From: Anaeromyxobacter dehalogenans 2CP-1
Lineage (GTDB): Bacteria; Myxococcota; Myxococcia; Myxococcales; Anaeromyxobacteraceae
Assembly (NCBI RefSeq): GCF_000022145.1
Contig: NC_011891.1
Coordinates: 4,260,501 to 4,324,500 of the forward strand
Direction: 5' to 3'
Length of the DNA: 64,000 bases
Shown here: positions 26,078-59,357 of the stretch, in pieces
How positions within the stretch are numbered: position 1 is the stretch's first letter
Layout: each line of letters starts with the position of its first letter
The notes under the pieces: model-generated
Databases searched by the model: none
What the model was told of the DNA's origin: nothing
Seen by the model: the letters and a program-made list of their open reading frames with translations, nothing else
Made by a program: the position numbers and the translations under genes

Positions 26078-26826
26078 GCCGCGCCTCCGCCGCCGGCTCG
26101 AGCAGCAGCGCGGCGTGCGCCGGCACGAGCCATCCGGCCGCGTCGTCCAGCGCCGGCGTCCCCGCGCCGCCGTAGCGCGGGTCCTCGGTGGAGAGCGCGA
26201 CGCGCCAGGCGTGCCCCTCCGGCGGCGCGACCAGCGGCTCCGGCAGCGCGTCCGCCTCGAGATCCGGGCCCAGGTTCACGAGCAGGAGCCGGTCGCCCGC
26301 GCCGTCGGCGAGCCAGCGGAGCGAGCCCCATGCCGCCCTCGGCGCGCGACCGGAGCAGCGCGGTGTCCTGGGGCTCGTTCTCGGCGACCACCAGGATGCT
26401 CCGGCCCGCGGCGACCGCGGCCGCCCGCGCGCGCCGGGCGACGAGCGCCACCACGTGCTCCTCGGAGGCGTCGAACATGCCCTGGGTGGCGTCGAGCCGC
26501 AGGCCGTCCACCACCTGCGACGGTCCGTGCGGCCCCTCCGGCTGGAAGCGCGAGGCGGGATCCGGGTAGGCCGCCCCGCCGTCCAGGCGGTAGCGGTAGC
26601 GCGCCCCGTCCCCCAGGCCCGGCACCAGCCCCGCGTGCCAGCCGCCGGGCTCGGCCGCGAGCGCGTGGCAGCCGGCGCGCGCGCCCTCGAGGCGCACCTC
26701 GACCTGCGCGCAGGTCGGCGCCCACACGCGGAAGTGCACGCCCCCGTCCGCCACCTCGGCGCCGGCGGCGAGCCGGCGGTGCGGGACGGAAGGTGGCGCC
26801 TTCGCCGGCGGAGCGTCGATCCTCAC
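26078..26826 (-). pseudogene. treZ: Malto-oligosyltrehalose trehalohydrolase (TreZ) remnant with two internal deletions
   Basis: Starting from GTG at 26826, the first about 105 codons encode the TreZ N-terminal CBM48-like domain (GVHFRVWAPTCAQVEVRLEG ... SRFQPEGPHGPSQVVD). The frame then jumps straight to the barrel region with the catalytic Asp, GLRLDATQGMFD, continues to LVVAENEPQDTALL and then loses frame near 26325. The C-terminal domain (GSLRWLADGAGDRLLLVNLG ... DPRYGGAG) is present in the next frame down to about 26090. Most of the TIM barrel is missing, and about 250 codons remain where family members usually have 550-620. It cannot be an active trehalohydrolase. No treY or other trehalose genes are adjacent. 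Sequencing or assembly error could explain the frameshift but hardly both deletions. Confidence 0.8.
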
Positions 26827-53036: not shown

Positions 53037-53199
53037 GCGTCCGGTGGGGGCCCGGCGCGCGCGGACCGTCTCCCGGCCACGGGACACCCCCTCGGCGCCG
53101 CCCTCGACGTGGGGAGGCGAGAAGGTCGGAGCACCCACCATCCCTGACCGGCTCGCACCCGATAGCGTCGCGTCGCGCGTTCACGGCCCTTTCCGCCCC

Positions 53200-53892
53200 A
53201 TGGCGGCCGCGCTAGTGTTCGCTCGAAGCGTCGTTCGATGGTCGAAGGGGGATCCCATCGCTCGCCTGGCCCAGAGACTCGCGCTCGCCGCTCCCGTGAC
53301 GCCGCAGGCCGAGGCGGACGTCCTCGACCTCGCCGAGCTCGCGGATCGCGACGCGGTCGAGCGCACCCTCGCCGGCGACACCGACGCGTTCGCGGGCGTG
53401 GTCCGCCGCCACGCCGGCGGCCTGGTCGGCATGTGCAGCCGCATGGTGAGCGACCCGCGCCTGGGCGAGGAGCTCGCGCAGGAGGCGTTCGCGCGCGCCT
53501 ACACGCGGCTCGCCTCGTTCCGCGGCGACTGCCGCTTCCGCCACTGGCTCTACCGCATCGCCGTGAACGGCTGCCGCGACTGGCTGAAGGCCGGGGCGCG
53601 GGCGGAGCGCGCCAGCGACCTCTCCGGCGACGAGCTGGTCAGCGCGGTGGACCCGGAGCGCGACGCCGCCGCCCGGCAGGCGCTGCTCGCGCTGCAGGGC
53701 GCGCTCGCCGCGCTCCCGGCCAAGTACCGCGAGGCGTTCACGCTGTTCCACGTCGAGAACCTTCCCTACGAGGAGATCGAGGCGGCCACCGGCGTGCGCG
53801 TCAACGCGCTGAAGGTGCGCGTGCACCGCGCGCGCCTGATGCTGCGCGAGCGCCTCGGCGACCTGCTCGATCCCGACGAGGTGACGCCGTGA
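53200..53892 (+). CDS. ECF-type RNA polymerase sigma factor
   Basis: The sigma factor has region 2 at about 60-125 (AFAGVVRRHAGGLVGMCSRM, DPRLGEELAQEAFARAYTRL, FRHWLYRIAVNGCRDWLK) and region 4 at about 165-220 (LQGALAALPAKYREAFTLFH, LPYEEIEAATGVRVNALKVRVHRARLMLRERL). The start is uncertain: ATG 53200, GTG 53215 and GTG 53296 are all in frame, and a TAGTGT -10-like element at 53213-53218 would place the mRNA start after the first two. The sequence before about residue 35 looks unlike the family, favouring a later start. It overlaps the next gene by GTGA, as expected of a sigma/anti-sigma pair. Confidence 0.85.
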   Translation: MAAALVFARSVVRWSKGDPIARLAQRLALAAPVTPQAEADVLDLAELADRDAVERTLAGDTDAFAGVVRRHAGGLVGMCSRMVSDPRLGEELAQEAFARAYTRLASFRGDCRFRHWLYRIAVNGCRDWLKAGARAERASDLSGDELVSAVDPERDAAARQALLALQGALAALPAKYREAFTLFHVENLPYEEIEAATGVRVNALKVRVHRARLMLRERLGDLLDPDEVTP

Positions 53893-54509
53893 CGGAGCGC
53901 GAGCTCCAGGACCTGCTGGACGGCCGCCCCGGTCCGCTCGCCGCGGAGCGGCTGCTGTCGTCCCTGCCGCCGGAGGAGCGCCAGGCCGCGCTCCGCCTGG
54001 TGGCGCTCTCGCGCCTGGCCGGCGCCGGCCCGCGCCCCACGCCGTCCGACGACTTCGTCCGGCGTACCCTCGTGCGCGTGCGCGCCAGCCGCCCGCCGCG
54101 GCGGCGGCCGCTGCTCGCCTGGCTGACGGCGCCGCGCCTCTCGCCGCTCGGCGCGCTCGCCGGCGCGGGGGCCGCGGCGTTCCTGGCGCTGGCGGTGGCC
54201 CGCTTCCCGGCGCCGCCCCCGCCGGACGCCGCGCGCGCCCCCGAGGCGCGGGTGGTGCGGGCGCGGCTCGCGCTGGCCGCCCCCGACGCGCGGGTGGTGC
54301 GCGTCGCCGGCGACTTCAACGGCTGGAAGCCCGAGGTGACGCCGCTCCGGCGCGGCGCCGACGGCGTGTGGACGGTGGAGGTCCCGCTCCGGCCCGGCCG
54401 CCGCTACGAGTACATGTTCGTGGTGGACGGCTCGTGGACCACCGACCCGGGCGCGCGCGCCCTCGCCGACGACGGGTTCGGCGGGAAGAACGCGATCCTG
54501 GACCTGTAG
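53889..54509 (+). CDS. Putative anti-sigma factor with extracytoplasmic CBM48 (glycogen-binding-like) domain
   Basis: The 206-residue protein has a cytosolic N-terminal region (1-75) with an anti-sigma-like SDDFVRRTLVRVRAS segment, one membrane segment (about 85-107), a Pro/Ala linker and a C-terminal CBM48/AMPK-type domain (about 137-206): VRVAGDFNGWKPEVTPLRRG, GVWTVEVPL, RRYEYMFVVDGSWTTDP and DDGFGGKNAILDL. Trp146, Trp161, Trp183 and Asn201 occupy positions like the glucan-binding residues of this family. It has no Cys and no zinc-finger anti-sigma motif. The GTG start overlaps the sigma factor stop. I infer that it holds the sigma factor at the membrane until the outer domain senses a glycan. 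Confidence 0.75.
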   Translation: MTERELQDLLDGRPGPLAAERLLSSLPPEERQAALRLVALSRLAGAGPRPTPSDDFVRRTLVRVRASRPPRRRPLLAWLTAPRLSPLGALAGAGAAAFLALAVARFPAPPPPDAARAPEARVVRARLALAAPDARVVRVAGDFNGWKPEVTPLRRGADGVWTVEVPLRPGRRYEYMFVVDGSWTTDPGARALADDGFGGKNAILDL

Positions 54510-54511
54510 GC

Positions 54512-55405
54512 GTGCTCGCGCCGAGCCTCGTCGCCCTCGCGCTGTGCTCGGCCGCGCACGGCGGCAACGGCCGCCTGGTGCTCTCGGCGCGCGCCGGCGC
54601 CGGGTGGGCCGGCGACACCTACCTGGGCGCGGACATGGGCGGCGGCGCGTTCGCAGAGCTGGCGCCCTCGGCGCGGCTGGATCTCTCGCTGGCGCCGCGC
54701 CTGAAGCTGGACGCCACCGGCGAGGTCTCCCTCGCGCGCTACCAGGCCGGCGGCTTCGGCGCCACGTCCGGGTCCGCCGGGGTCCGTACCCGCTGGCTCG
54801 GCGACGGATGGGACGCCTCGCTCGCCGCGGCCGTCGAGCACGCCGCGTTCACCTCCGGCGTGCCGCTCGGCGACCTCGCCGCCGGGCCACAGGTGGACGC
54901 CACCACCGCGGCGCTGCTCACGCCGCAGCTCCGGGTGCGGACCGGGCCGGTCGCGCTGCGCGCCGCGGTCACCGGCGCGCTGCGCTCCTCGCGCGCGTCC
55001 GGCGACCGGGTGGGCGAGCGCGGGCTCGCGGCGCTCGCCGCCGCGGAGTGGGCGCCGTGCCGGCGCGCGGCGCTGGAGCTGTCGCTCCGGCACGAGCGCG
55101 TCGCGAGCGAGGACCCCGCGTTCGAGCTGCGCGCCTGGGGCGGCGCGGCGAGCGCGCTCCTCAACCCCGCCGGCGCGCTGGAGGCGTCGGCGGTCGCGCA
55201 GGTGCACCGCGCCGCGCTGCACGGCGGCGTGGACGAGACGGCCTGGCGCGCCACGCTGGACCTCGCCCATCCGGCGGGCCCGGTCTGGCTGGTGGTCTCC
55301 GGCGGCTGGGCCCGCAGCGCGACCGGCGGCGCCGGGCGCGCCGTGGCCGACCGCGCGACGGTGTTCGCGGGCGTGCGCGGCAGCGCGCGGGTGCTCTCGT
55401 GGTGA
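54512..55405 (+). CDS. Predicted outer-membrane beta-barrel protein in ECF/CBM48 operon
   Basis: The 297-residue protein has a short signal peptide (LAPSLVALALCSAAHG) and then many alternating amphipathic strands (RLVLSARAGAGWAGDTYLGA, RLDLSLAPRLKLDATGEVSL, LRVRTGPVALRAAVTGALRS), ending FAGVRGSARVLSW with a terminal aromatic residue. Two nucleotides separate it from the anti-sigma stop, and its own stop overlaps the next gene by four bases (GTGA), so it is an integral operon member. It could be a glycan-export or sensing channel; the family is not recognised. Confidence 0.68.
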   Translation: MLAPSLVALALCSAAHGGNGRLVLSARAGAGWAGDTYLGADMGGGAFAELAPSARLDLSLAPRLKLDATGEVSLARYQAGGFGATSGSAGVRTRWLGDGWDASLAAAVEHAAFTSGVPLGDLAAGPQVDATTAALLTPQLRVRTGPVALRAAVTGALRSSRASGDRVGERGLAALAAAEWAPCRRAALELSLRHERVASEDPAFELRAWGGAASALLNPAGALEASAVAQVHRAALHGGVDETAWRATLDLAHPAGPVWLVVSGGWARSATGGAGRAVADRATVFAGVRGSARVLSW

Positions 55406-55770
55406 GCGGGCGCGGCCGGCTCGCGGCGCTGGCCCTCGCGGCCCTCGCCGGCGCGGGCGCCTGCGCGCCGCGCGCGACCGTCCGCGCGCCCGCGCGGGCA
55501 TCCACCCAGGGTGAGCGCGCGCCCACCGTGTTCACGTTCCGGGGCCCCGCCGAGGCGGTCGCGCTGCGCGGCACCATGACCGGGTGGGACGCGCTCCCGC
55601 TCGAGCGCGAGGGCGATCGCTTCGTGCTCGCGATATCGCTCGCGAGCGGTCGCTACGAGTACCGCTTCGAGGTGCGCCGCGGCGGCGAACTGCGTATCGT
55701 GCTCCCGGCGGACGCCGAGCGGGTGGACGACGGCTTCGGGGGCGAGAACGCGGTCCTCCGTGTCCCGTAA
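55402..55770 (+). CDS. Envelope protein with CBM48-like domain, probable lipoprotein
   Basis: The 122-residue protein has a hydrophobic N-terminus ending LAGAGAC (Cys21; the lipobox is atypical with Ala at -3), a linker and a CBM48-like domain (about 42-122): TVFTFRGPAEAVALRGTMTG then W, RFVLAISLASGRYEYRFEV and DDGFGGENAVLRVP. The C-terminal DDGFGGxNA(I/V)L motif is shared with the anti-sigma-like protein two genes upstream, so both domains may bind the same ligand. The start GTG overlaps the barrel gene stop. Confidence 0.7.
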   Translation: MSGRGRLAALALAALAGAGACAPRATVRAPARASTQGERAPTVFTFRGPAEAVALRGTMTGWDALPLEREGDRFVLAISLASGRYEYRFEVRRGGELRIVLPADAERVDDGFGGENAVLRVP

Positions 55771-55833
55771 CCGCGTGCTCCCACGCTCGTCGGGTCGGGT
55801 GGTGCGGACGTCGGCAGAACGGAGACACCGTCG

Positions 55834-56718
55834 GTGATCGTCGCGCTTTTCCTCACCTCGCTCGTCCTCGGCGTCCCCGCGCCGTCGGCGCCGTCCGCGC
55901 CGGACCCGGTGCAGGCGGCGGGCGCCGCAGGCGTCCCCGCCGCGCTGGCCCGCGACGTGGCGAGCCGGGCGGGGGCGCGCGGCGTCGCGCCGGAGCGGGC
56001 GCTCGCGCCGGTGGTCGCGGCTGCCCGCGCCGGCCTGCCGGGCGAGGTGGTCGCGGCGAAGATCCTCGAGGGCCTGGCCAAGGGCGCCCCGCCGGAGCGC
56101 GTGCTCGAGGTCGCCGCGGAGCTGGGCGGCCGCCTCTCGCGCGCGGCGGCGCTGGTGGCGCAGGCGCGCGCCTCCGGGCTGCCGCTCCGCGGCGACCGGA
56201 CCGCGGCGCTCGCCGACCTGGCCGGCGCGCTCGGCGCGGGCGTGCCGCCGGACGCGGTGCTCCAGCTCGTCGACGCGGCGCGGGGCGCGTCCGGCGGGAG
56301 CTGCGAGGCGGTGGTGGCGGCGGCCCGCACGCTCGGTGAGCTGGCACGGCGCGGCGTGCCGGTCCGGGAGACGCTGCCGCTCGGCGCGGCGCTCGCGCAG
56401 CGCGCGCCAGCGTCCGCCGGCGAGGTGGCGGCGCTCTACGACGCGTACCGGGCCGAGGGCGGCCGGGACGCGGCGGCGTTCCTGGTCGAGGCCGAGCGCC
56501 GCGTCCAGGCCGGCGCGGCGCTGCAGGGCATGGTGGACACGTTCGGCGAGTCGCCCGACCACCTGGTGCGCGCGCGGAGCCGCGCCGCCGACGCCGCCGC
56601 CGGCGGCCTGGACAAGGCCTCCGAGCACGTCCGCAGCGCGCGCGAGGGCGTCGGCCCCGGGTCGCCGCCCGGCCTGGAGCGCGTTCCACCCGGCCGCGGG
56701 CCGAAGAAGCCCAAGTAG
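55834..56718 (+). CDS. Secreted Ala-rich helical protein, unknown function
   Basis: The 294-residue protein has a signal-like N-terminus (VIVALFLTSLVLGVPAPSAP) and then repeated amphipathic helices such as ERALAPVVAAARAGLPGEVV and ERVLEVAAELGGRLSRAAAL, with a basic Pro/Lys end (GRGPKKPK). It starts 63 nt after the CBM48 lipoprotein, with ACGGAGA upstream of GTG, and may be the last gene of that operon. No family is recognised. Two Cys are absent from the mature helices except one at about 153. Confidence 0.6.
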   Translation: MIVALFLTSLVLGVPAPSAPSAPDPVQAAGAAGVPAALARDVASRAGARGVAPERALAPVVAAARAGLPGEVVAAKILEGLAKGAPPERVLEVAAELGGRLSRAAALVAQARASGLPLRGDRTAALADLAGALGAGVPPDAVLQLVDAARGASGGSCEAVVAAARTLGELARRGVPVRETLPLGAALAQRAPASAGEVAALYDAYRAEGGRDAAAFLVEAERRVQAGAALQGMVDTFGESPDHLVRARSRAADAAAGGLDKASEHVRSAREGVGPGSPPGLERVPPGRGPKKPK

Positions 56719-56779: not shown

Positions 56780-58561
56780 GTGGTCGAGGCCGCCCCTTCC
56801 ATCCCGACGGACTTCAAGCCGCACCTGTTCGGCAAGTTCTTCCTCCTCCAGCGTCTCGCCATCGGCGGGATGGCGGAGATCTTCCGCGCGCGCGTCCCGG
56901 GCGCCGGCGGGTTCGAGAAGGAGCTGGTGGTGAAGCGCATCCTGCCCGCGCGCGCGCAGGATCACGGCTTCATCAAGATGCTGGTGAACGAGGCGAAGCT
57001 CACCGTCCAGCTCACCCACTCGAACATCGCCCAGGTCTACGAGTGCGGGAAGATCGACGGGAACTACTTCATCTCGATGGAGCTGGTGAACGGCGTCTCC
57101 CTCAAGGAGATGATGCAGGCCTTCGCCCGCGCCGGCGCGCAACTCTCGCCCGAGCAGGCCATCTACATGGTGCTGCAGCTCCTCACCGGGCTCGACTACG
57201 CGCACAAGAAGACCGACGCGCAGGGCCAGCCGCTGCAGATCGTCCACTGCGACGTCTCGCCCGACAACGCGCTCGTGTCCTGGGAAGGCGAGATCAAGCT
57301 GCTCGACTTCGGCATCGCGCGCGCCGCCACCGGGCTGTCGAACTACAAGGAAGGCATGCTGATGGGGAAGCTCGGGTACGTCGCGCCCGAGCAGGCCTCG
57401 CTGGAGCGGCGCTGGGATCACCGGGTGGACCTGTTCGCCGCGGGGATCCTGCTGTACGAGCTGCTCACCAAGCAGAAGCCGTTCCCCAAGGCCACCGACG
57501 TCGAGTCGCTCGTCGCCGCGCGCAAGGCGCGGGTGGTGCCGCCGACCTCGATCGACCCGCGCCTGCCCAGGGAGATCGACGCCATCGTGGCGCGGGCGCT
57601 CGCCTACGATCCCGACGAGCGCTTCACCGACGCGCGCGCGTTCGCCGGCGCGCTGGTGGACGTGCTCTTCCCGACCCCGCAGTCGTCCATCCAGGACCTG
57701 CTCGGCAAGCAGATGCAGCAGGTGTTCGCGGAGAAGATCGCGCGGCAGCGCAGCGCGCGCGCCCACGACCCGCTCATCATGAAGGTGCTCTCCAACCTCG
57801 CCGAGAAGCAGCAGGCGCAGGCGGAGTACGAGCGGCTCTCGGCGCCGGCCACCACGCCGCCGGCGGGGCTGCCCGCCGCGGCCGGCTCCGGCGCGTCGCC
57901 CTTCGACCCCATCGCGCCGCTGCCCTCGGACGTGCTCCCGGCCGCCGAGCCGGCCCGGCCCCCGCCGCGGAAGGCGCGCAGCCACCGCCCGCCGCCGCGC
58001 GAGGGCATCCGGCTGCGCACCGCCGTGCTGGTCGGGCTGGTGCTGGCGGTCGGCGGCGCCGCCGGGCTGCACTACGCCGAGACCTGGCTGCGCACCGGCA
58101 TCCTGGTGGTCACGTCCGAGCCGCCCGGCGCCGAGGTCACGCTGGATGGCGTCCGCTCCGGCGCGACCACGCCGGCGGTGCTGGAGGGGCTCGTCCTGTC
58201 GAGGCCGCACCAGGTCGCGCTGGACGGGCCGGGCGTGCGCGCGGTGACGATGGACCTGGCGCCGGTGCCCGGCACGCTGGTGCGCCGCGTCCACGCCCGG
58301 CTCGAGACCGCGCTCGGCGCGGTGACGATCGAGAGCCAGCCGGCGGGCGCCGAGGTGCGCCTGGACGGGCGCGTGGTCGGGCGCGCCCCGGTGACGGTGC
58401 TGGGGGTGCGCCTCGACGAGCGCCACCGCGTGGACCTCACCCTCCCCGGCCACGAGATCGACCAGTTCGTGGTGCTGCCGGAGAAGGACGGGACGCGCTT
58501 CACCCGCAAGCTCGGCCGCAGCGATCAGCCCGAGCCGCGCGAGAAGGCGATCGGGCCGTAG
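56780..58561 (+). CDS. Membrane Ser/Thr protein kinase with PEGA repeats
   Basis: The 593-residue protein has a kinase domain (about 18-300) with LAIGGMAEIFRARV, catalytic Lys in ELVVKRILP, IVHCDVSPDNALV, LLDFGIARA and a VAPEQ segment. The catalytic loop has HCD in place of HRD, common in myxobacterial kinases. A Pro-rich linker leads to one membrane segment (about 411-430) and two PEGA domains outside (about 443-510 and 515-585; EPPGAEVTLDGVRSG and QPAGAEVRLDGRVVG). PEGA domains are thought to bind the cell surface. An FHA-domain gene follows 19 nt later and is a natural partner for phosphothreonine signalling. Confidence 0.88.
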   Translation: MVEAAPSIPTDFKPHLFGKFFLLQRLAIGGMAEIFRARVPGAGGFEKELVVKRILPARAQDHGFIKMLVNEAKLTVQLTHSNIAQVYECGKIDGNYFISMELVNGVSLKEMMQAFARAGAQLSPEQAIYMVLQLLTGLDYAHKKTDAQGQPLQIVHCDVSPDNALVSWEGEIKLLDFGIARAATGLSNYKEGMLMGKLGYVAPEQASLERRWDHRVDLFAAGILLYELLTKQKPFPKATDVESLVAARKARVVPPTSIDPRLPREIDAIVARALAYDPDERFTDARAFAGALVDVLFPTPQSSIQDLLGKQMQQVFAEKIARQRSARAHDPLIMKVLSNLAEKQQAQAEYERLSAPATTPPAGLPAAAGSGASPFDPIAPLPSDVLPAAEPARPPPRKARSHRPPPREGIRLRTAVLVGLVLAVGGAAGLHYAETWLRTGILVVTSEPPGAEVTLDGVRSGATTPAVLEGLVLSRPHQVALDGPGVRAVTMDLAPVPGTLVRRVHARLETALGAVTIESQPAGAEVRLDGRVVGRAPVTVLGVRLDERHRVDLTLPGHEIDQFVVLPEKDGTRFTRKLGRSDQPEPREKAIGP

Positions 58562-58580: not shown

Positions 58581-59357
58581 ATGAAGCTCGTCATCGAGGA
58601 CGCCGAGGGGACGCGGTCGGTGGTGCCGTTCGACGGCGACGAGGTCAGCGTCGGCCGGGCGCCGGAGGGCAACTCCTTCCACATGGCCGATCGCGACGTG
58701 TCGCGCCGCCACGCGCGGTTCGTGCGCGCCGGCGGCGCGGTGTTCGTCGAGGACCTGGGCAGCCTCACCGGCACGCGCGTCAACGGCGAGCGGATCTCCG
58801 GGCGGCGGCGGCTGCGCGAGGGCGACCTGGTGGAGATCGGCGCCTACGATCTCGCGCTGCTGCCCGACGTGGACGCGGCCGGCGCGGGCGCGCCCCCGCC
58901 CATCCCGCACGGCGCGCGCACGCCGGATCCGACCGCCGGCCGCCGCACGCCCGAGCCGGGCACCGCCGCGCCGCCGCCCGGCCGCCCCACCCCGCCCAGC
59001 CTGCGGATCCCCGTTCCTGCGGCGGCTGTCGCGCCCGCTGCACCGACCCCGGCCGCGGCGCCTGCCCCCGCGCCGTCCGCGCAGCCCCCGCCGGCCGCCG
59101 CCGCGCCGTCGCGGCCCACGCCGCGCCCGTCCGCGCCGGCCCACGCCGCCCCCGCGCCCTTCCCCTCCGCCCCGACCCCCGCCGCGCCCGCGGTGGCGCC
59201 GCCCGCCCCGCGCACCTCGCGCACCGGCCGCACCGTGGCGGTCGCGCTCGTCGCGGGAGCGGTGGCGCTCGCGCTCGGCATCGCCGCCGGCTGGACGGTG
59301 GGCCGGCTCGGCGCCGCGCCCGCCGCGGAGCCGCCCGGCGCCCCCGCGTCGCGCTGA
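58581..59357 (+). CDS. FHA domain protein with C-terminal membrane anchor
   Basis: The 258-residue protein has an FHA domain (about 1-95) with VGRAPEGNSFHMADRDVSRRH, VEDLGSLTGTRVNGERI and LREGDLVEIG, carrying the Gly-Arg, Ser and His/Asn residues that read phosphothreonine. A Pro/Ala-rich disordered linker (about 100-215) leads to one membrane segment (about 224-245, VAVALVAGAVALALGIAAGW) near the C-terminus. The FHA domain would face the cytosol, close to the upstream kinase. Confidence 0.85.
   Translation: MKLVIEDAEGTRSVVPFDGDEVSVGRAPEGNSFHMADRDVSRRHARFVRAGGAVFVEDLGSLTGTRVNGERISGRRRLREGDLVEIGAYDLALLPDVDAAGAGAPPPIPHGARTPDPTAGRRTPEPGTAAPPPGRPTPPSLRIPVPAAAVAPAAPTPAAAPAPAPSAQPPPAAAAPSRPTPRPSAPAHAAPAPFPSAPTPAAPAVAPPAPRTSRTGRTVAVALVAGAVALALGIAAGWTVGRLGAAPAAEPPGAPASR

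Follow-up and report, generated by a model that had tools for sequence, protein, structure and literature searches.

Why would a glycogen-binding fold form part of a membrane protein encoded directly beside a sigma-factor gene? This question is raised by a closely packed operon of Anaeromyxobacter dehalogenans 2CP-1 in the 64,000-nucleotide stretch of DNA analyzed here (the window), which an earlier reading of the letters alone (the sequence-only reading) had described as an extracytoplasmic function (ECF) sigma factor, a one-span protein with a CBM48-like outer domain in the place of an anti-sigma factor, a predicted outer-membrane barrel, and a second small CBM48-like protein. Gene by gene, this close-packed layout was confirmed: the gene for the ECF-type sigma factor (53200–53892, plus strand, as for all members of the operon; 230 residues, start codon uncertain) overlaps that for the membrane protein (53889–54509) by 4 nucleotides, the membrane-protein stop codon is separated by 2 nucleotides from the GTG start of the barrel gene at 54512 (54512–55405; 297 residues), and the barrel gene overlaps that for the second CBM48 protein (55402–55770; 122 residues) by 4 nucleotides. 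Two things had been left out of the earlier description, a fifth conserved member encoding an exported helix-rich protein (55834–56718; 294 residues) and the regulatory sites. We propose, with a probability of roughly 0.6, that the operon encodes a periplasmic glycan-responsive circuit of an ECF sigma factor and its anti-sigma factor, a self-contained transmembrane signalling cassette for which we infer both the glycan ligand and the direction of signalling. The assignment of the sigma factor is straightforward, as it matched Sigma70_r2 (48.5 bits) and Sigma70_r4_2 (54.2 bits) above the Pfam cut-offs, exceeded the cut-off for the NCBIfam sigma70-ECF superfamily, and contains regions 2 and 4 only, as expected of the ECF class.

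We searched for the cassette in a scan of 84,980 genomes combined with a phylum search and found 53 loci overall that pair a sigma gene with a gene for a CBM48-bearing anti-sigma relative, some of these loci being close relatives of one another, notably those from Nitrospira. Because 52 pairs recurred in the automated scan, the arrangement is not a matter of chance. At least eight phyla are represented; the taxa given in the record titles are Deltaproteobacteria/Myxococcota, Nitrospirota, Gemmatimonadota, Vicinamibacterales (Acidobacteriota), Eisenbacteria, Krumholzibacteria, Elusimicrobia, Spirochaetes, and Brocadiia. Of the 53 loci, 40 have a second CBM48 and 38 have a relative of the fifth gene. 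Conservation of gene order in related genomes had been set beforehand as a test of the sequence-only reading, and the order proved to be conserved well beyond Myxococcota. Within Anaeromyxobacter the cassette is patchy, occurring in the window genome and in three others (G031, G032, and G033, in the last split over contigs), with weak branching-enzyme-like matches at most in the remaining genomes of the genus; the nearest named relative is that of A. oryzae Red232, with 62% identity over the anti-sigma protein. A search of a plasmid collection for the cassette gave no match. At one locus (L041:7284–8333, genome G163), sigma region 2 is joined directly to the anti-sigma/CBM48 protein in a single frame with region 4 missing, reflecting either a genuine fusion or the collapse of a metagenome assembly.

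The recurrence bears on the simplest alternative, in which the CBM48 membrane protein, rather than being an anti-sigma factor, is an independent protein of the cell surface whose gene adjoins an ECF gene by chance. Taken singly, the window protein lends this alternative some support: it contains no Cys, it does not carry the HxxxCxxC zinc motif of the ZAS (zf-HC2) class, and as a lone query it matched CBM48-type models only and no anti-sigma model. However, the identical adjacency at about 50 loci argues against a chance neighbor, as do the relatives of the protein. A profile built from 16 zinc-less N-terminal domains, chosen to avoid circularity, matched RsiW best among PDB entries (E = 1.7e-10) and RsrA, DdvA, MucA, and RseA weakly; a whole-family profile matched RsiW (7.4e-10) and RseA (0.0018) over its N-terminal half and AMPK beta and pullulanase over its C-terminal half. 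NCBIfam anti-sigma models matched 29 of 37 relatives, all below the model cut-offs. The HxxxCxxC motif is present in the N-terminal part of 11 of the 52 script-found pairs, the proteins encoded at the same position in G194 and G188 start with anti-sigma domains of the classical zinc type (HLAQCPSC and HVEQCSSC, respectively), and another relative (L037) exceeds the Pfam zf-HC2 cut-off (26.3 versus 22.2 bits). We thus consider the chance-neighbor explanation very improbable.

AlphaFold modelled the anti-sigma protein (mean predicted local distance difference test score, pLDDT, 88.9; predicted template-modelling score, pTM, 0.50, both for the whole protein) with helices at residues 3–10, 16–24, 28–46, and 56–67, a transmembrane helix at 86–105 that corresponds to the single hydrophobic segment of the sequence, and CBM48 strands at 123–205. 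This arrangement, with a homologous domain of four helices (residues 3–67) followed by a transmembrane helix, is that of the RsiW/RseA type, an assignment that is based on the family profile rather than on the window sequence alone. The window protein shares with RsiW (partner SigW) and RseA (partner RpoE) a homologous sigma-binding domain at the N-terminus, a single membrane span, and an adjacent ECF gene, but RsiW has the zinc motif that the window protein does not, and neither RsiW nor RseA has a CBM48 sensor. Homology makes a strong case for an anti-sigma role of the membrane protein despite the missing zinc motif, in keeping with the earlier placement of a protein without zinc finger or Cys in this role. 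An Arg-rich stretch before the transmembrane helix suggests, by the positive-inside rule, that the N-terminus is inside, and hence that the anti-sigma domain is cytoplasmic and the CBM48 domain periplasmic.

The C-terminal half of the anti-sigma factor is a CBM48 domain both by Pfam threshold (CBM_48, 39.1 bits against a cut-off of 22.4; AMPK1_CBM, 37.0 bits, also above cut-off) and by fold, as this domain was modelled with pLDDT values of 97–98 and Foldseek matched it to AMPK glycogen-binding domains with TMt values of 0.83–0.90. The second CBM48 protein matched AMPK1_CBM with 40.0 bits, and the motif DDGFGGxNA(I/V)L that had been noted in both CBM48 proteins of the operon is indeed common to them. 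We compared these domains at the positions that contact cyclodextrin in AMPK beta1 (structure 1Z0N). The equivalents of W100, W133, and N150 are retained in 52, 46, and 51, respectively, of 52 anti-sigma CBM48 domains, and in 39, 28, and 30, respectively, of 39 second CBM48 domains; the equivalent of L146 is Phe in 51 of the 52 anti-sigma domains. Retention of Trp and Asn at glucan-contacting positions, which had been remarked in the window's first CBM48, thus extends to its relatives, where W100 and N150 are near-invariant. The conserved contact residues favor a sugar ligand for the sensor CBM48, which may be an alpha-glucan. The likeness to the AMPK beta glycogen-binding domain and to the CBM48 domains of branching enzyme and isoamylase lies in the fold (TM score up to 0.90) and in W100, W133, and N150, whereas the role differs: those domains recruit a kinase or an enzyme of the cytosol to glycogen, and the domain described here makes up the half of an anti-sigma factor that lies outside the cytoplasm.

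The idea that CBM48 domains normally occur in cytosolic glycogen enzymes was overstated, as secreted myxobacterial proteins carry them too. Two such proteins (L046:1–1344 and L047:6356–7780) carry a CBM48-like domain at the N-terminus and have ends rich in Cys (LLCxFRNxxPxVCGL), with no link to a sigma gene. Three further CBM_48 matches were found in long open frames of the A. dehalogenans genome. The window has a CBM_48 match (29.4 bits) at 26575–26763 on the minus strand, in a 725-residue open frame that possibly encodes an alpha-glucan enzyme and has no link to the operon.

The barrel protein, which bears on the location of the second CBM48, had no Pfam match. Its AlphaFold model (pLDDT 87.8; pTM 0.78) has a signal helix at residues 2–15 and 14 strands, and a predicted signal peptide with a closed, even-stranded barrel is what is expected of an outer-membrane beta-barrel, as previously supposed. 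In profile–profile comparison, the window barrel matched the CBM48-fused barrels of its relatives with 95.3% probability over 238 columns, and related Nitrospirota barrels gave below-threshold matches to BBP2_2. At 19 of the 40 loci that have one, the second CBM48 is fused to the C-terminus of a long barrel protein. A lipobox-like Cys is found in many of the short second CBM48 proteins (LFSLGC in L058 and LLPGC in L091), and the N-terminus of the window's own appears to be exported, possibly as a lipoprotein (AGAC). As an even-stranded barrel has its two ends in the periplasm, a C-terminally fused CBM48 would be periplasmic as well, so both CBM48 domains most likely share one compartment, the periplasm. 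Display of a CBM48 at the cell surface, as the sequence-only reading had it, was not borne out, as both the predicted topology of the anti-sigma factor and the barrel C-terminus point to the periplasm.

Joint encoding of an ECF sigma factor, a membrane anti-sigma factor, and an outer-membrane barrel recalls FecA/FecR/FecI, and by analogy the barrel might import a glycan from outside while its periplasmic CBM48 signals to the anti-sigma CBM48 by direct contact. The position of CBM48 at the barrel C-terminus, on the periplasmic side, is consistent with such surface signalling, and the closest barrel folds found by Foldseek are the 14-stranded channels CymA, a cyclodextrin channel, and OmpG. These matches have TM scores of only about 0.5, however, and the resemblance to CymA reflects strand number more than kinship; we do not deduce cyclodextrin specificity from it. 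Moreover, the 14-stranded barrel has no TonB plug or signalling domain, and the operon encodes no TonB-dependent receptor, no STN domain, and no protein with a FecR match; several Nitrospirota encode the CBM48 on its own as a short protein, with the barrel gene located after the fifth gene. We hold signalling of the Fec kind to be distinctly unlikely here.

Candidate promoters may tie the fifth gene to the cassette. The motif GTAAC-N16-CGTC occurs upstream of the sigma gene at 9 of 44 deduplicated loci, compared to a mean of 0.03 and a maximum of 1 in dinucleotide shuffles. One of only five exact sites in the 5.03-Mb A. dehalogenans genome lies at 55767–55791 (plus strand), across the stop codon of the second CBM48 gene and 43 nucleotides upstream of the fifth gene. 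The exact site recurs at the equivalent place in six Myxococcota relatives (L033, L034, L035, L036, L037, and L041) and before the fifth gene in three Eisenbacteria loci (L075, L085, and L092). Clusters of sites surround the cassette in five Nitrospirota genomes, with G196 having four exact sites within 9 kb; G047 has three exact sites within 3.4 kb, before the sigma gene, a DUF4382 lipoprotein gene, and the fifth gene. Seven distinct genomes encode DUF4382 proteins close to the cassette; the exact site accompanies them in three of these genomes and a variant in one. Of the five exact sites in the A. dehalogenans genome, we take only that before the fifth gene as supported. The fifth protein, to which no Pfam or NCBIfam family could be assigned, carries a conserved EGLAKG motif and has a tail of low complexity, and its membership of the operon is indicated by conservation beside the sigma/anti-sigma pair. 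Upstream of the window's sigma gene, we assign with low confidence a promoter-like site at 53144–53169 (plus strand), CTGAC(C)-N16-CGTC (that is, CTGAC-N17-CGTC), a weak variant conserved only in the near-identical L033 locus. A regulon defined by this CTGAC variant in the window's own genome was rejected, as its 4 hits, compared to 4 control hits, were at chance level.

Other genes near the cassette or behind similar sites deserve mention. DUF4382 lipoproteins lie beside the cassette in different phyla (for example, L035:6688–7365 and L092:3762–4517, the latter on the minus strand). Candidate targets near the cassette in two Nitrospirota loci (L151 and L152) are Gly/Met-rich exported proteins and repeated lipoproteins (SKGPVSGATVNGYA), and an apparent metal-transport P-type ATPase is encoded about 3 kb past the last site in L152. 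A small Fis-type (HTH_8) regulator has an exact upstream site in five Anaeromyxobacter genomes (L177, L186, L202, L204, and L215), with diverging spacers and with one of these genomes lacking the cassette, and is probably the target of another ECF sigma factor. An exported Cys-rich lipoprotein of about 492 residues with knottin-like repeats is encoded behind an exact site in three Anaeromyxobacter genomes (L180, L190, and L219); its weak matches to the Pfam families I2 conotoxin and Toxin_12 are resemblances in disulfide pattern and not evidence of a toxin. Downstream of the operon, a Ser/Thr kinase with PEGA domains (56780–58561, plus strand) and an FHA protein (58581–59357, plus strand) are encoded at the same position in other Anaeromyxobacter genomes.

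Several observations weigh against a glycan-responsive circuit as outlined above. About a quarter of the loci have no second CBM48 or fifth gene, the residue K126 of AMPK is not retained in the anti-sigma CBM48 domains, the window's second CBM48 has Arg at the W133 position, and the site preceding the sigma gene in the window is a weak one. Among 124 neighboring proteins scanned, no alpha-glucan enzyme or sugar-metabolism family recurred, the commonest family being DUF4382 (4 of 124). Four Anaeromyxobacter genomes without the operon have 3–10 exact sites each, and two distal candidates, the Cys-rich lipoprotein (L180) and the Fis-type regulator (L177), keep their sites in one such genome (G036), in which no anti-sigma relative was found, and were rejected as targets. 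Because the motif occurs in genomes without the cassette, other sigma factors may read similar promoters, and we limit our claim to sites inside the cassette.

Some of these points fit the main alternative, in which the same sigma/anti-sigma pair senses envelope assembly. E-set sandwiches often serve as protein–protein modules, and if CBM48 did so here, a lost or misassembled contact with the barrel or with the lipoprotein CBM48 would free the sigma factor, as in RseA/RseB. The barrel and second CBM48 are encoded together and fused in relatives, the predicted outputs are exported proteins and lipoproteins, and the W133 position is lost in the second CBM48 of the window; the missing sugar-metabolism neighbors also keep this alternative alive. 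In contrast, it is difficult to see why the anti-sigma CBM48 domains of at least eight phyla would keep Trp, Asn, and aromatic residues almost unchanged where AMPK contacts sugar if they had no sugar ligand, and at some loci no barrel or second CBM48 was detected. On balance, we regard an envelope-assembly sensor as unlikely, although it retains appreciable weight.

In a glycan-responsive circuit, the RsiW/RseA-like helical domain would sequester the ECF sigma factor at the inner membrane, and the periplasmic CBM48, with its aromatic glucan-binding platform, would serve as the sensor. The second CBM48, tethered or fused to the periplasmic face of the barrel, may bind the same kind of glycan at the outer membrane, present it to the sensor, or compete with the sensor for it. 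The signal would be a change in glycan occupancy, the glycan probably being an envelope glucan or an oligosaccharide resembling an alpha-1,4-glucan, and the simplest route to sigma release would be regulated proteolysis of its anti-sigma factor. The freed sigma factor could then act at GTAAC-N16-CGTC promoters of its own operon and of the fifth gene and, in relatives, at those of the barrel region and the DUF4382 lipoprotein. A broader proposal, which we put forward tentatively and at somewhat less than even odds, is that these loci form a widespread, uncharacterized Gram-negative class of glycan-responsive ECF systems in which the anti-sigma CBM48 and the barrel or lipoprotein CBM48 sample the same periplasmic glycan and the main output is the new exported helical (EGLAKG) family.

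The sequence-only reading knew of no characterized system with this layout. The exact layout was likewise not found in the literature searched, and a search for CBM48 or glycogen-binding anti-sigma factors, which excluded most subscription papers and the ECF reclassification, returned no description; it is possible that the group has been described as an unnamed ECF group. The principle, however, has a characterized precedent in RsgI of Clostridium thermocellum, an anti-sigma factor with an N-terminal sigma-binding part, a membrane segment, and a C-terminal carbohydrate-binding module outside (PMC4711584). Both systems have a one-span membrane anti-sigma factor with an extracytoplasmic C-terminal carbohydrate-binding module, encoded next to its own sigma gene, which RsgI regulates (PMC4711584) and which the window protein would likewise regulate. 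RsgI differs in having a sigma-I-type partner, an RsgI-N domain, CBM3, PA14, or GH10 modules, and a Gram-positive surface setting (PMC4711584), whereas the window system has an ECF sigma factor, an RsiW/RseA-like N-terminal domain, and a periplasmic CBM48, and adds to these the barrel, the other CBM48 protein, and the exported helix-rich protein. As no RsgI-N match was found and the partner is an ECF sigma factor, we consider the two systems analogous rather than homologous, with RsgI the nearest precedent for the idea.

If our proposal is correct, the glycogen-binding fold would extend from metabolic enzymes and AMPK to transmembrane gene regulation, and Gram-negative bacteria of at least eight phyla would gain a polysaccharide-sensing sigma system. 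The predicted promoter and output protein offer handles for finding the signal, and polysaccharide-sensing gene control would become testable beyond the well-studied Gram-positive case.

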